The notes under the pieces were generated by a model. That model did no database searches, was not told the DNA's origin, and saw nothing but the letters and a program-made list of their open reading frames with translations. Shown here in pieces: positions 18,229 to 30,907 of a stretch of 64,000 nucleotides of DNA. The DNA is from Acidihalobacter aeolianus. GTDB taxonomy: Bacteria; Pseudomonadota; Gammaproteobacteria; DSM-5130; Acidihalobacteraceae. The position numbers and the translations under genes were made by a program. The stretch covers positions 1,320,462 through 1,384,461 of the forward strand of contig NZ_CP017448.1 in the NCBI RefSeq assembly GCF_001753165.1, in the 5' to 3' direction. Each line of letters opens with the position of its first letter. The stretch's first letter is position 1.

Positions 18229-19332
18229 ATGAGAATTCTTGCTCGTTATATTGCGGTTGAAGTTTTACTTTCCATGCTGGCTGTGGGATTCGTTCTCGGG
18301 CTTGTGATTATCGGCAGTACTTTTGTACGCCTGCTTGGGATGTCCGCGAGCGGTGCCTTGCCGGTGGAGTTATTGGCGTCATTGGTGGCGGTTGAAAGCC
18401 TCAAGGCGATGATGCTGTTGCTGCCTGTGACCTTATTCATCGCGGTTATGCTGACCTTGGGGCGGCTTTATCGCGACAGTGAAATGTCGGCGATGGCTGC
18501 TGCAGGCATGGGACCCCGTAGGTTGTATGCAAGCTTGATGCTGCTCGGTTTGCCGATGGCGGTTATTTCAGCTTATCTGATGTTGGTGGCATATCCCTGG
18601 GCCTCCGAAAAAAGTGTCGTGATCCAGCGCGAAGGTCAGCAGCGTATGGATTTTGCCGTTGTGGAGGCAGGCCGTTTCATACCCTTGAATAATGGCCGCG
18701 CGGTAGCTTTTGTATCCTCGCTTGGCGAGCAGGGGAAGCAATTGCAGGATATTTTTGTACACACCGATGCGATCAAGGGGTGTGCCACCGTGCTGAGTGC
18801 TCGATCAGGGATACTGCATGTCGAACGGCAAGCGGGTTTGCGTATATTGAATCTGACCGATGGGACGCGCTACGTCGGTACGCCTGGCAAGGCGGATTAT
18901 AGTGTGTTGCAGTTCGCTCATTATCAGGTACGCATGCCGTTGGCTGCCGTAAAATCCGATCACTCACCACGCCGCATTGAAATGTCCACCTTGACGCTGT
19001 GGCGACAGGGTGGGCCTGGTGATCTGGCTGAAATCGAGTGGCGCCTGGCGGTACCCATTTCTGCGCTGATTCTGATCTTGTTGGCAGTGCCGATGAGCCA
19101 CGTCAAACCACGCCAGGGGCGCTATGGGCAACTGGTTTTCGGCATGCTCTCTTATGTGGTTTATGCCAATTTGTTACTGATCGCAAAATCCTGGATGGAA
19201 AAAGGTGTTGTGCCTGTCTGGCTGGGTATGTGGTGGCCGCATTTGCTGATGCTGGGATTCGTCGGGTTGTTGTGGTGGATTCGTGGTGGTAGGCGTTCCA
19301 CCGGTTTCAGGCGCCGTAGGGTGGCAGCATGA
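18229..19332 (+). CDS. lptF: LPS export ABC transporter permease LptF
   Basis: With LptG and the LptB ATPase it extracts lipopolysaccharide from the inner membrane and pushes it onto the LptC-LptA bridge. It has 367 residues, with three membrane helices at each end (starting at about residues 12, 55 and 98, and at about 268, 297 and 325) flanking a periplasmic beta-jellyroll domain, as expected. It overlaps lptG by 4 bp (ATGA). Only lptF and lptG are here. lptB, lptA and lptC are outside the window. Confidence 0.96.
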   Translation: MRILARYIAVEVLLSMLAVGFVLGLVIIGSTFVRLLGMSASGALPVELLASLVAVESLKAMMLLLPVTLFIAVMLTLGRLYRDSEMSAMAAAGMGPRRLYASLMLLGLPMAVISAYLMLVAYPWASEKSVVIQREGQQRMDFAVVEAGRFIPLNNGRAVAFVSSLGEQGKQLQDIFVHTDAIKGCATVLSARSGILHVERQAGLRILNLTDGTRYVGTPGKADYSVLQFAHYQVRMPLAAVKSDHSPRRIEMSTLTLWRQGGPGDLAEIEWRLAVPISALILILLAVPMSHVKPRQGRYGQLVFGMLSYVVYANLLLIAKSWMEKGVVPVWLGMWWPHLLMLGFVGLLWWIRGGRRSTGFRRRRVAA

Positions 19333-20393
19333 GACGAATCAATTTCTATTTGGTGCGTTCTGTAATCAGTGGTAGTGCAGTTGCGTTATTGCTCTTGACA
19401 CTGTTGGACTGGGTATTTGCTTTTCTGGCGGAAATCGACAGTGTCGGGCGAGGGCATTACGGCTTGGCGCAGGCTTTGCTGTTTACTCTGTATACGGAAC
19501 CGCAGCGCATGTACACCTTGTTTCCCACGGCGGTGCTGATCGGAACGCTGCTGAGCCTGGGCAATCTCGCTGCCCATAGCGAATTGATCGCAATTCGTGC
19601 GTTGGGTGTATCCGTAACCGGTGTGGTCAAAGCCGCATTGGCCGCCGGAATATTGATGGTGGTGGTGGCCTTGCCATTCGGCGAGTGGGTGGCACCGGCT
19701 GCGGCGCGTAGTGGGCAAGCGTTCAAGTTGGCTGCGGAAAGCGGACAACAATTGATCCGTGAGGGTAACGATATATGGGCCAGGGATGGGGATCGTTACA
19801 TCCATATCGAGCATGTGCTCCCCGGTAGACGATTGCTCGATGTGAACGTTTACACCATTTCTCCAGCAGGGAGGATGCGTTTTGCGCTACACGCTACCAG
19901 TGCGCATTACGGAGATCATGCATGGGTGCTACAAGGCGTCAGCGAGACTCATTTTGGTGTTGGGCAGATTGGAGTTCAGCATCTAGAAAAGCAGATGATG
20001 CCGGCTTTGATTTCTCCCAAGCTGTTTGACTTGCTCGACACGCGCCCCGGTGAAATGACGCTCCCCGCCCTGGCTCAGTATGTCGTTTACCTTAAAAGAA
20101 ATCATTTGGACGCGGCGCGCTACGAGCTGTCGTTCTGGCAGCGCTTTACCACGCCTTTGTCCGCTTTGGTCATGCTGATCCTGGCCATTCCCTTCGTATT
20201 TGGATCGCAGCGCTCGGGGGGGGCTGGGCAGCGACTTTTTATCGGGATCGTGGTTGGTATCGGCTTTTATTTCCTGAACAGGCTGAGTGCTCAAGTGGGC
20301 TTGGTGTTTGGTTTGGCGCCTCTGTTAAGCGCCATGCTACCCCTTGGTATTTTCCTGTTCGGTGGCCTGTTCGCTCTGAGAAGATTTCAGTAA
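19329..20393 (+). CDS. lptG: LPS export ABC transporter permease LptG
   Basis: Partner permease of LptF, 354 residues with the same 3+3 helix layout around a periplasmic jellyroll. Family-typical segments are LLLLTLLDWVFAFLAEIDSV (about residues 19-38) and TTPLSALVMLILAIPFVFGS (about 274-293). Its last 57 bp overlap the 3' end of the oppositely oriented RDD-protein gene, an unusually deep convergent overlap, and no terminator is visible between them. Confidence 0.96.
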   Translation: MRRINFYLVRSVISGSAVALLLLTLLDWVFAFLAEIDSVGRGHYGLAQALLFTLYTEPQRMYTLFPTAVLIGTLLSLGNLAAHSELIAIRALGVSVTGVVKAALAAGILMVVVALPFGEWVAPAAARSGQAFKLAAESGQQLIREGNDIWARDGDRYIHIEHVLPGRRLLDVNVYTISPAGRMRFALHATSAHYGDHAWVLQGVSETHFGVGQIGVQHLEKQMMPALISPKLFDLLDTRPGEMTLPALAQYVVYLKRNHLDAARYELSFWQRFTTPLSALVMLILAIPFVFGSQRSGGAGQRLFIGIVVGIGFYFLNRLSAQVGLVFGLAPLLSAMLPLGIFLFGGLFALRRFQ

Positions 20394-20831
20394 ATCTGAA
20401 GGCGATGGGATTTTGATCAGTCTTGTGTGACTCAGGATGTCGTGTAGGCATCTTTTCTCTCGATCGACCAGAGACCATAAGAAACCGGTGCCAAGTAGCA
20501 ACCAGGAGAGGATCGAGAGGAAAAATCTCAGTGTGGCTCGGGTCCAACCGATGGGTTTACCATCGTCACTGACGAGGCGGATCCGCCATGCCTTCATGCC
20601 CAGTGTTTGTCCGCCATGTACCCAGAACCAAGCTAAAAATAGATATAGAACGTAGAGCAGATAAAGTTGAAAGAGATGGTTTCCAGGGGCGACGGCTTGC
20701 CCATGCTGAAATGGGATCAAAAGCGCGCTGGCGATCATAAGCAATGCGAACATCAACAAGCCATCGTATGCCATTGCGAGCAAGCGGCGTGGTAGTCCTA
20801 CACGATTATCCATAGTTTTATTCGGGTTCAA
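20337..20831 (-). CDS. RDD-family membrane protein
   Basis: A 164-residue protein with the RDD signature: Arg and Asp in RRLLAMAYDGLLMF (about residues 15-28) and a later Asp in the C-terminal SLVDREKRCLHD segment (about 121-132). Membrane segments are near residues 22-42, 54-74 and 107-123. RDD proteins are mostly uncharacterised inner-membrane proteins, some linked to ion exchange. The central HGGQTLGMKAWRIRLVSDDG block is the conserved loop. It converges on lptG with a 57-bp overlap, and its upstream side now borders the insertion sequence. Confidence 0.88.
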   Translation of the reverse strand: MNPNKTMDNRVGLPRRLLAMAYDGLLMFALLMIASALLIPFQHGQAVAPGNHLFQLYLLYVLYLFLAWFWVHGGQTLGMKAWRIRLVSDDGKPIGWTRATLRFFLSILSWLLLGTGFLWSLVDREKRCLHDILSHTRLIKIPSPSDLLKSSQSEQATEQENTKG

Positions 20832-20904
20832 TGTCGTACCTGGTCAGATTGTTTGAACAAGATTGGATTATGCGCAATAGACATTGCATGCGGATTGATC
20901 TGGC

Positions 20905-20908
20905 TTAA
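20905..20908. repeat. Target-site duplication TTAA, left copy
   Basis: TTAA directly precedes the left inverted repeat of the insertion sequence and recurs at 22207-22210. It fits the YTAR target duplication of IS5-type elements. Because TTAA is palindromic, the exact element boundary has slight ambiguity. Confidence 0.7.
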
Positions 20909-22206
20909 CAGGCTGTTGAAAATTCCCCCGATTTAGCGGTTATCATGTTGATCAGGGTCCATTGGCGACGTGCCCCTTCGGATCTGGGGCCTGATTTTTC
21001 CCGAAAACAGCCCAAATCCCGATCTCTGGGCGCACCGATCCCTTGATGTGTGCCTTCAACATGCTGCCAGTCCCAGATTGCGCATCCGCACCAGGTTGTA
21101 GGCCGCCGCGCTGAGCACAAACTGGAAATCCAGTTTCTCGCGTCCGACAAACCGACTTTTGCGCAGACCCGCAATGGTCTTGAGCCAACCGAAGCATTCT
21201 TCGATCCGCTTGCGGATCGTCAGGCTGGTTCGGTAACCGGGATGGCCGATGGTGCGCCCGTCGATGGCCGAGCGGCGCCCGGCCGTGTTCTGAGCCACAT
21301 GCGGCGTGACGTTTCGTCCACGCATCGCCGCCACAAAGCCTTGCGTGTCATAGTTCTTGTCCGCGCCCAGCGTGATCCGGTGGCTCCCGCCGAGCGCGTC
21401 GACAAGCTCGACACCGGCCTCGCGCTCGGCCGTGCCGGTGGCCTGGCTCGTCTGCGACTCGACGATCAGGCCGTGGCGGTTTTCCATCAGCAGGTGTCCG
21501 AGGTAGCTGAGCTTGGCGGTCGTGCCTTCGCTCTTGCGATACAGCAAGGCATCCGGGTCGGTCCTGGAGACGTGCGTTTCCCGACACCGCTTCTGCCCGC
21601 GAAAGTCCACCGTGGGATTGCGCCCGCCACCGCTCGGCGGCGCGTCCTCGTCCCGGGGCCGGTAGCTCTTGTGCGAGGCCAGCGCTTCGATCAACGTGCC
21701 ATCGACGCTGAAGTGTTCGCTAGACAGCAGATCGGCCGCACGGGCCTGATCCAGCACCCGGGCGAAGAAGGTGCGGGCCACATCGCCTGCAAGCAGGCGG
21801 TCACGGTTCTTGGTAAACGTGGAGTGGTGCCAGACCGGATCGTCCATGGAAAAGCCCACAAACCAGCGAAACAGCAGGTTGTAGTCGATCTGTTCGACCA
21901 ACAGGCGTTCGCTGCGGATGGTGTAGAACGCCATCAACAGTTGCGCGCGCAGCAGCTTCTCCGGCGGGATCGAGTCACGGCCCATATGGGCATACAGCGC
22001 ATCGAAGTCAGCGTCGAGTTCTTTGAGCGCTTGATCGACCATCCGCCGGATCGGGCGCAGAGGATGGTCCTTCGGCACCCGTTGCTCCGGGCTGACCGTG
22101 CTGAACAGCCCATCCTGATGTATGTCGGCACCGCGCATCGGCCACAACCCTCACTCAACAATACAAAACCAATCTTCCGGGTTTACAGGACTTTTTCAAC
22201 AGCCTG
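20909..22206 (-). mobile_element. Complete IS5-family insertion sequence (about 1.3 kb)
   Basis: The 1298-bp element is bounded by a 14-bp perfect inverted repeat CAGGCTGTTGAAAA (20909-20922, and its complement at 22193-22206). It carries one intact transposase gene leftward and has TTAA on both sides. The 147 bp between the transposase stop and the left end is noncoding. It sits between the divergent RDD-protein and AT-hook-protein genes and interrupts no coding sequence. Intact ends, gene and target duplications suggest a fairly recent and potentially active insertion. Confidence 0.9.
21056..22147 (-). CDS. IS5-family DDE transposase
   Basis: A 363-residue transposase with an N-terminal DUF772-type helical domain (about residues 20-120, containing FYTIRSERLLVEQIDYNLLF). 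The catalytic triad is visible as Asp149 in FSVDGTLIEA, Asp263 in GADKNYDT and Glu316/317 in RIEECFGWLK. It appears full length with no frameshift. The start may be Met4 rather than Met1. The opposite strand has a 386-codon open frame that is a shadow of the GC-rich codons. Confidence 0.95.
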   Translation of the reverse strand: MWPMRGADIHQDGLFSTVSPEQRVPKDHPLRPIRRMVDQALKELDADFDALYAHMGRDSIPPEKLLRAQLLMAFYTIRSERLLVEQIDYNLLFRWFVGFSMDDPVWHHSTFTKNRDRLLAGDVARTFFARVLDQARAADLLSSEHFSVDGTLIEALASHKSYRPRDEDAPPSGGGRNPTVDFRGQKRCRETHVSRTDPDALLYRKSEGTTAKLSYLGHLLMENRHGLIVESQTSQATGTAEREAGVELVDALGGSHRITLGADKNYDTQGFVAAMRGRNVTPHVAQNTAGRRSAIDGRTIGHPGYRTSLTIRKRIEECFGWLKTIAGLRKSRFVGREKLDFQFVLSAAAYNLVRMRNLGLAAC

Positions 22207-22210
22207 TTAA
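22207..22210. repeat. Target-site duplication TTAA, right copy
   Basis: Right-hand copy of the TTAA duplication flanking the insertion sequence. It is 26 bp upstream of the probable -35 box of the AT-hook protein gene. Confidence 0.7.
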
Positions 22211-22236
22211 GCTATAAGGAAATAAAAAATAAGGGC

Positions 22237-22264
22237 TTGTATTGGAAAGCTGCGAGAATATATT
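22237..22264 (+). promoter_or_regulatory. Probable sigma-70 promoter of the AT-hook protein gene
   Basis: TTGTAT (22237-22242) and TATATT (22259-22264) with a 16-bp spacer lie 43 bp before the start codon in an AT-rich patch. It begins just 26 bp after the insertion-sequence target duplication, so any more distal regulatory sites were moved away by the insertion. Confidence 0.5.
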
Positions 22265-22307
22265 CTAGTATTGACATATCGCAATTGTTTTAACTAAGGG
22301 GAATTGA

Positions 22308-23024
22308 ATGTCGGTTGAAAATTTGGATGAGAAGACAGTCGCCGAGCCTGTCACAAAAGACAACGTGACGACTGCGGAAAAGTCCGAAGCCAGCACGCCA
22401 GCTGCGGAGCCCAAGGCAAAAAAAGTCCGGGCTAAAAAGCAATCAGCCAAATCGGGTGAGGCCGTGAAGAAGAAACGAGGCCCAGGTCGTCCGCCGAAGT
22501 CAGCGACGGCTGCAGCCACGGCGGCGCCGAAGAAGAAACGCGGTCCGGGTCGTCCGCCGAAGTCAGCGACGGCTGCAGCCACAGCGGCGCCGAAGAAGAA
22601 ACGAGGCCCGGGTCGCCCACCGAAGTCAGCGACGGCTGCAGCCACAGCGGCGCCGAAGAAGAAACGAGGCCCAGGTCGTCCGCCGAAGTCAGCGACGGCT
22701 GCAGCCACAGCGGCGCCGAAGAAGCGCGGTCCCGGTCGTCCGCCTAAGTCGGCGACCGCTGCGTCAACGAGCGTTTTGGAACGTGAACGTACAGTCAAAG
22801 CCAATTTCAAGGATAAGCTGGCCGAGGCCAAGCTCGAAATCGCTTCGCTGAAAAACGAGCTCAAGACCGTTCTCAAGCGCGAAGCCTCCATGGCTAAACT
22901 TTTCGAAGCACGCGAAAAGGCAGTTGCCAAATTTGCGGATTCCTGGTTGTCGCGCGAAATGGCCAAGCTCCAGCGTGCTGTTACGCCGAAAAAGCGTCGA
23001 GGTAGGCCGCGTAAGAGTTCGTGA
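22308..23024 (+). CDS. Repetitive lysine/alanine-rich AT-hook (histone H1/AlgP-like) protein
   Basis: A 238-residue, strongly basic protein. Residues 1-53 are a charged leader. Residues 54-137 are four identical 21-residue repeats of the form KKKRGPGRPPKSATAAATAAP, and a shorter fifth copy follows to about 153. A likely coiled coil spans 155-225, and the protein ends in a canonical AT-hook, KKRRGRPRKSS. Each repeat holds a GRP core flanked by basic residues, so it could bind the minor groove of AT-rich DNA. The Lys/Pro/Ala repeats resemble AlgP and histone H1 tails. The start at 22308 follows AAGGGG. It is a DNA-compacting or regulatory protein by inference. Confidence 0.85.
   Translation: MSVENLDEKTVAEPVTKDNVTTAEKSEASTPAAEPKAKKVRAKKQSAKSGEAVKKKRGPGRPPKSATAAATAAPKKKRGPGRPPKSATAAATAAPKKKRGPGRPPKSATAAATAAPKKKRGPGRPPKSATAAATAAPKKRGPGRPPKSATAASTSVLERERTVKANFKDKLAEAKLEIASLKNELKTVLKREASMAKLFEAREKAVAKFADSWLSREMAKLQRAVTPKKRRGRPRKSS
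22467..22766 (+). repeat. In-frame 63-bp tandem repeats within the AT-hook gene
   Basis: Four 63-bp units begin at 22467, 22530, 22593 and 22656, and a fifth partial unit begins at 22719 and lacks one Lys codon. The units are nearly identical in DNA, with only a few silent changes (for example GCCACG/GCCACA), so the array probably expands and contracts by recombination or slippage. Confidence 0.92.
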
Positions 23025-23055
23025 ATGACCATCAAGCGTCTTCGCTAGGCTAAAC

Positions 23056-30722: not shown

Positions 30723-30907
30723 GCGCCGGCGCGTCGCGCAAACCCGCAAAGCTTGGGGTTGTGCGCGCGACTCAAGTCGATGCCTTTGCTGGCATCCGTA
30801 ACGACACACATGCGCCGTCACGGCTCGCTGGGTGCCCAATCCGTTGAAGCGGAAGGGTTGCGGGTCGGGGCGTATGGAGGTCCAACCCGAAACTGGAGAA
30901 CAACCCC

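Follow-up and report, generated by a model that had tools for sequence, protein, structure and literature searches.

The AT-hook is a short DNA-binding element made of a GRP core with flanking basic residues, and the RGR of the motif inserts into the minor groove (PMC11354804). In HMGA proteins several short basic hooks of this kind (Pfam PF02178) are strung along a disordered chain that ends in an acidic tail. A bacterial counterpart, CarD of Myxococcus, carries four RGRP hooks in an HMGA-like domain at its C-terminus, with an acidic stretch before them and an N-terminal domain that interacts with RNA polymerase. In CarD, HMGA- and H1-like domains are reported to be functionally equivalent (title of Garcia-Heras 2009, cited in PMC4374960). 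AlgP and PhaF of Pseudomonas combine a helical part with a long, disordered and repetitive arm of Lys, Ala and Pro whose repeat number varies; in AlgP the helical part is N-terminal and the KPAA-type repeats are C-terminal (PMC9239181). The xenogeneic silencers H-NS, MvaT and Lsr2 contact DNA through a folded domain.

Here we describe a gene from the salt-tolerant, acid-loving bacterium Acidihalobacter aeolianus, found in a 64-kb stretch of DNA analysed as a whole (the window), whose product resembles each of these systems in part. As in HMGA, several short basic GRP hooks lie in a disordered chain, and the sequence RRGRPRK stands at the C-terminus. Unlike HMGA, the protein has five arm hooks of the form PGRP followed by a long conserved helix, it has no acidic C-terminal tail, and its orthologues may have no hooks at all. 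With CarD it shares the multi-hook design in a bacterium and an acidic stretch ahead of the hooks, but a single helix replaces the CarD_CdnL_TRCF domain, and both neighbourhood and lineage are different. No Pfam or NCBIfam match in the protein corresponds to the polymerase-interacting domain of CarD. The possible logic of H-NS, MvaT and Lsr2, an oligomerizing helix combined with a contact to the minor groove of AT-rich DNA, may apply here as well, although the part that touches DNA is a disordered arm with several hooks and not a folded domain.

A preliminary description of this gene had compared it with AlgP. The comparison is apt for the design and fails for descent: the order of the two parts is reversed, the repeats are of GRPPK type with GRP hooks, there is no link to granules, and no homology was detected. 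We compared the helix profile (A2) with L078, a genuine AlgP (62% identical to the AlgP query used). The score was about 0 bits, a value equalled by 98 of 500 shuffles, and the hhalign probability was 0.3%. With no similarity between L078 and the helix profile, we rejected AlgP homology.

Gene, repeats and predicted structure

The coordinates of the gene and its surroundings are collected in Table 1. An ORF check found the boundaries of the 238-residue reading frame to be exact, and the layout given in the preliminary description (four identical 21-residue units, a fifth hook and the RRGRPRK tail) was borne out. The gene is present once in its own genome of 3.53 Mb, which comprises two contigs including a 162-kb second replicon. 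A long antisense ORF (22265-23035, minus strand) covers the same DNA and was rejected as a real gene. We take the plus frame to be the real one because it has orthologues, is preceded by upstream signals (start and Shine-Dalgarno) and diverges at codon position 3. The synonymous changes in the repeats described below do not separate the strands on their own, since they leave the antisense frame unchanged too. The gene is real and under selection.

Table 1. Features of the gene and its neighbourhood (window coordinates)
Feature	Position	Strand	Basis or remark
lptF and lptG, conserved neighbours	18229..20393	+	locus comparison
RDD-family membrane protein gene, conserved neighbour	20337..20831	-	always on the strand opposite to the gene
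Insertion sequence, 20-bp perfect terminal inverted repeats	20903..22212	-	lineage-specific, 1310 bp
Promoter-like segment TTGTAT, 18 nt, TATTCT	22237..22266	+	by eye; conserved in G001
Shine-Dalgarno-like AAGGGGAA	22296..22303	+	same in G001
Whole gene; product with an AT-hook / H1-like arm and a conserved helix at the C-terminal end	22308..23024	+	single copy, orthologues
Acidic leader, residues 1-36 (4 K+R, 8 D+E)	22308..22415	+	residue composition
Disordered basic arm, residues 37-152 (35 K+R, 1 D+E)	22416..22763	+	structure prediction (pLDDT about 50), composition
Hook unit 1, KRGPGRPPKSATAAATAAPKK	22473..22535	+	tandem repeat
Hook unit 2, protein identical to unit 1	22536..22598	+	tandem repeat
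Hook unit 3, protein identical to unit 1	22599..22661	+	tandem repeat
Hook unit 4, protein identical to unit 1	22662..22724	+	tandem repeat
Hook 5, partial and diverged, KRGPGRPPKSATAA	22722..22763	+	sequence comparison
Long helix predicted as one piece, residues 147-225, containing the family signature	22746..22982	+	structure prediction
C-terminal canonical hook RRGRPRK	22995..23015	+	sequence

Tandem Repeats Finder reports 4.8 copies of a 63-bp unit (score 482) at 22466-22762, the sole substantial tandem repeat within the window. Pairwise, the four 21-residue units lie 1-4 nucleotides apart, and every one of the six variable sites is synonymous. About 30% of random changes are expected to be synonymous, which gives six out of six a P of about 7e-4. 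The protein sequence of the repeat therefore looks selected; recent duplication and conversion also contribute to the sameness of the units.

There are six GRP cores, each flanked by Lys or Arg. The five GRP repeats reported earlier for the arm are present, but their cores are PGRP; only the last hook has RGRP. Because the arm hooks are without the first Arg of RGR, specific binding to AT-rich DNA is less sure than had been thought. Searches of the protein gave no NCBIfam match and no Pfam match of note, the AT-hook model PF02178 failing to match even at E 1; two close relatives (L028 and L025) pass the cut-off of that model. In distant orthologues the terminal RRGRPRK gives way to KKRRRRK, KKRKAKKRK and the like.

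AlphaFold2, run with a three-row alignment, predicts a continuous helix from residue 147 to 225 (pLDDT mostly 95-98), no structure for residues 1-146 (mostly about 45-55) and a loose tail after the helix. The signature in this protein reads KRE..xxKLFE.REKAVAKFA..W..RE, and L27, R33, E34 and W55 are nearly invariant in the family helix alignment. In the family helix, hydrophobic residues recur with a period of 3.61, a signal equalled in strength by 56 of 2000 shuffles. Such a period fits an amphipathic helix; the classical coiled-coil period of 3.5 is weaker. The coiled coil proposed earlier is thus predicted as one continuous helix, for which coiled-coil pairing or self-association is plausible. 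No membrane segment is predicted in the protein, and a PDB search for relatives returned weak low-complexity or coil matches only.

A family with one helix and two kinds of arm

How far does the gene extend beyond its own species? With the whole protein as query, the search reached relatives within its genus and family and in several further families. A profile built from the helix and tail detected orthologues in 33 (about 9%) of the 369 gammaproteobacterial genomes sampled. The window protein, which is also one of the rows of this profile, matches it at E 3.6e-36, and an independent single-sequence search reaches L005, L010 and L011 at E 1e-20 or better. All five sampled genomes of the order carry the gene, among them the Acidihalobacter sp. 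MAG G003 (contig JALUXU010000069). When contigs were searched with a 6-row alignment, matches appeared in an Acidihalobacter MAG and one gammaproteobacterium; the same search with a single protein gave no match. Members consist of a basic disordered arm, the helix KRE.ALxKLxEKKxxAxxKFxxxWxKKELxKI and a short basic tail.

Apart from AT_hook on some of them, no Pfam or NCBIfam family fits the relatives, and we found no name for the family in Pfam, NCBIfam or the literature, most subscription papers lying outside that search. Within that range of libraries and papers the family appears to be undescribed. We do not claim it outside the Gammaproteobacteria, because a phylum-wide sample gave just one weak extra match. 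The helix matched none of 50,697 phage and 72,556 plasmid records and the locus is conserved on the chromosome, so a mobile or phage origin was rejected. Three genomes have two members each: G363 (on C132 and C165), G141 (C7 and C2) and G267 (C275 and C232); the second members are possible paralogues outside the conserved locus. In G002, contig C1 (L003 / L054) ends at 807228, inside the repeat array, probably at an assembly break.

The chromosomal position is shared widely. At 18 of 20 other ten-kilobase loci checked, the gene sits in the arrangement lptF-lptG-RDD / gene / xerD-dsbC, a count that takes in loci where it adjoins lptF-lptG and the RDD-family gene, xerD-dsbC, or both. Its orientation is constant: lptFG and xerD share its strand, and RDD is on the other one; in the window lptFG and the gene are on the plus strand and RDD on the minus strand. 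Of the two remaining loci, one is truncated where its contig stops and has dapE on the other side, as the window does; the other has none of these neighbours. Within the window's own order, dapE replaces xerD on the far side of the gene. Because this position is common across families, the low-similarity matches are true orthologues and not chance basic proteins. At L061 and L070, in two distant families, the interval between RDD and the gene holds three small genes that are related to each other (clusters c11 and c17; about 110 residues each). Elsewhere in the window, a t44 RNA (RF00127) match at 30787-30886 scores 63.9 bits, where the gathering score is 44.

The arm, unlike the helix, changes. 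Arms are either of hook type, with GRPPK repeats and up to nine GRP, or of a histone-H1-like KKA/KKxA type, and several are mixed; helix and locus are kept in orthologues with KKA arms. When the hook/non-hook label is mapped on a 30-row maximum-likelihood tree of the helix, five changes explain it best, of which two at the least are imposed by well-supported branches; these numbers are rough, since about 80 columns leave the tree weakly resolved. Members differ even within family f49, where L033 has RGRP hooks and L042 has none. The repeat unit is 21 residues in the window and 23 in the same-genus genome G001, and other hook-bearing relatives have 4 to 9 GRP. Judged from the sequences, repeats were amplified independently in the sister species, with the hooks kept.

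Conservation of the GRP cores thus holds among the nearer relatives only; the wider orthologous family often has KKA/KKxA instead. The preliminary description had handled the helix as secondary, and the orthologues reverse this: the helix is the conserved element. Because it is kept while the arm switches, it defines the family, and the hooks represent one form that a general DNA-binding arm can take. This natural exchange matches the equivalence of HMGA- and H1-type domains reported for CarD (Garcia-Heras 2009), and the two together suggest that the role of the arm is generic DNA binding.

Upstream region and insertion sequence

The insertion sequence encodes a DUF772 and DDE_Tnp_1 transposase (21056-22147). 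It separates RDD from the gene, ends shortly before the conserved promoter-like segment, and is absent in G001. The Acidihalobacter MAG G003 has an unrelated transposase-like ORF (L087, 5077-5637) between lptG and the gene. The spot may be a repeated target of insertion sequences, because that ORF occupies the corresponding interval.

Between the insertion sequence and the start codon lie 95 bp of AT-rich DNA, 31% G+C compared with 62% for the window. The stretch is kept in G001, without the insertion, as GCTTGTATTGGAA...GAGAATATATTCTAGTAT...CAATTGTTT...TAAGGGGAATT. A consensus promoter scanner found no plus-strand site in the upstream region. A perfect 12-bp palindrome, AGAATATATTCT (22255-22266), overlaps the -10-like TATTCT and is conserved in G001; it occurs once in the window even when one mismatch is allowed. 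From its sequence the palindrome is a possible operator, and self-regulation is possible because a conserved AT-rich palindrome lies in the promoter.

Proposed function and alternatives

We think it probable that the protein is a nucleoid-associated architectural protein in which a DNA-binding arm is mounted on a conserved helix. The disordered arm, in which five weak GRP hooks follow one another at intervals of about 21 residues, would bind DNA multivalently, by contacts in the minor groove and by electrostatic ones, somewhat favouring AT-rich DNA, and the C-terminal hook would supply one canonical AT-hook. The long amphipathic helix would pair with itself or with a partner and so join two or more arms, by which DNA segments could be bridged or coated. 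The helix would carry the conserved function, and the gene may regulate itself through the promoter palindrome. We infer DNA binding, AT preference, oligomerization, bridging and autoregulation alike from these features. The earlier proposal of a multivalent binder of AT-rich DNA keeps its basic disordered arm and long helix, which sequence, prediction and orthologues all support; its AT specificity is the less sure part. Since orthologous arms are either AT-hooks or a KKA tail, a basic, flexible and repetitive arm seems to matter more than the GRP core. The mechanism is a variant of that of known HMGA/H1-like bacterial proteins.

The protein has no Histone_HNS domain (PF00816), and neither has any other protein of its genome. 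The H-NS DNA-binding domain is missing from 30 of 31 carriers tested, and 17 of the 22 non-carriers lack it too (P 0.07 in Fisher's test, uncorrected for ancestry). Since its own genome and most carriers are without Histone_HNS, the protein may act in cells that have no H-NS, though the association is weak. A far broader reading is doubtful in our view: a class-wide, hitherto undescribed gammaproteobacterial nucleoid protein whose helix is a new oligomerization or partner-binding domain, whose HMGA- and H1-type arms were repeatedly exchanged at one locus, and which is the main organizer or silencer of AT-rich DNA in mostly H-NS-less genomes.

Could the helix instead contact the transcription machinery? 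In a CarD-like cofactor its partner at specific promoters would be RNA polymerase, a sigma factor or some other regulator, with the hooks serving only as an anchor. The nearly invariant Arg-Glu and Trp do suggest a specific protein contact and not a generic coil, and the gene's own promoter has its AT-rich palindrome. Yet Pfam and NCBIfam reveal no CarD, sigma or zinc domain, the domain content is unrelated to that of CarD, and the length and type of the arm vary widely while the helix stays the same; we regard a cofactor as unlikely. Similarly unlikely is a tether between granule and nucleoid like AlgP (polyphosphate), PhaF (PHA) or MLDS (lipid droplets), in which the helix would bind the granule or its coat and the arm DNA or polyphosphate. 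AlgP has the same logic of a helix with a disordered Lys/Pro/Ala arm, its arm repeats are required for granule positioning (PMC9239181), and the Acidihalobacter genome has a polyphosphate kinase. That kinase, however, is unassociated with carriage (25 of 31 carriers, 17 of 22 non-carriers), and three f10 carriers have no match to it. A PHA tether is disfavoured by the absence of a PHA synthase from the gene's own genome; 6 of 31 carriers and 9 of 22 non-carriers have one. Nor is the helix homologous to the AlgP N-terminal domain, and the conserved neighbours include no granule genes.

The arm might also bind RNA or acidic polymers non-specifically, making this an RNA-, ribosome- or membrane-associated basic protein whose place beside lptFG and RDD reflects an envelope role. 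Basic low-complexity arms do bind RNA, as do some AT-hooks (PMC11354804), and envelope genes (lptFG, RDD, dsbC) adjoin. We hold this to be highly improbable: the gene is opposite in strand to RDD and in many genomes nearer to xerD, the prediction has no membrane segment, and hooks are typical of DNA binding.

Read as a nucleoid-associated architectural protein, the gene product is an unannotated candidate nucleoid protein present in about 9% of the gammaproteobacterial genomes sampled, most of which have no H-NS domain. It is usual to regard AT-hook arms and H1-like tails as separate inventions; here orthologues at one locus swap them. With the arms exchanged on a linked, conserved helix, the family is a natural experiment on the needs of a chromatin-like arm, one that sets hook chemistry against charge and flexibility.
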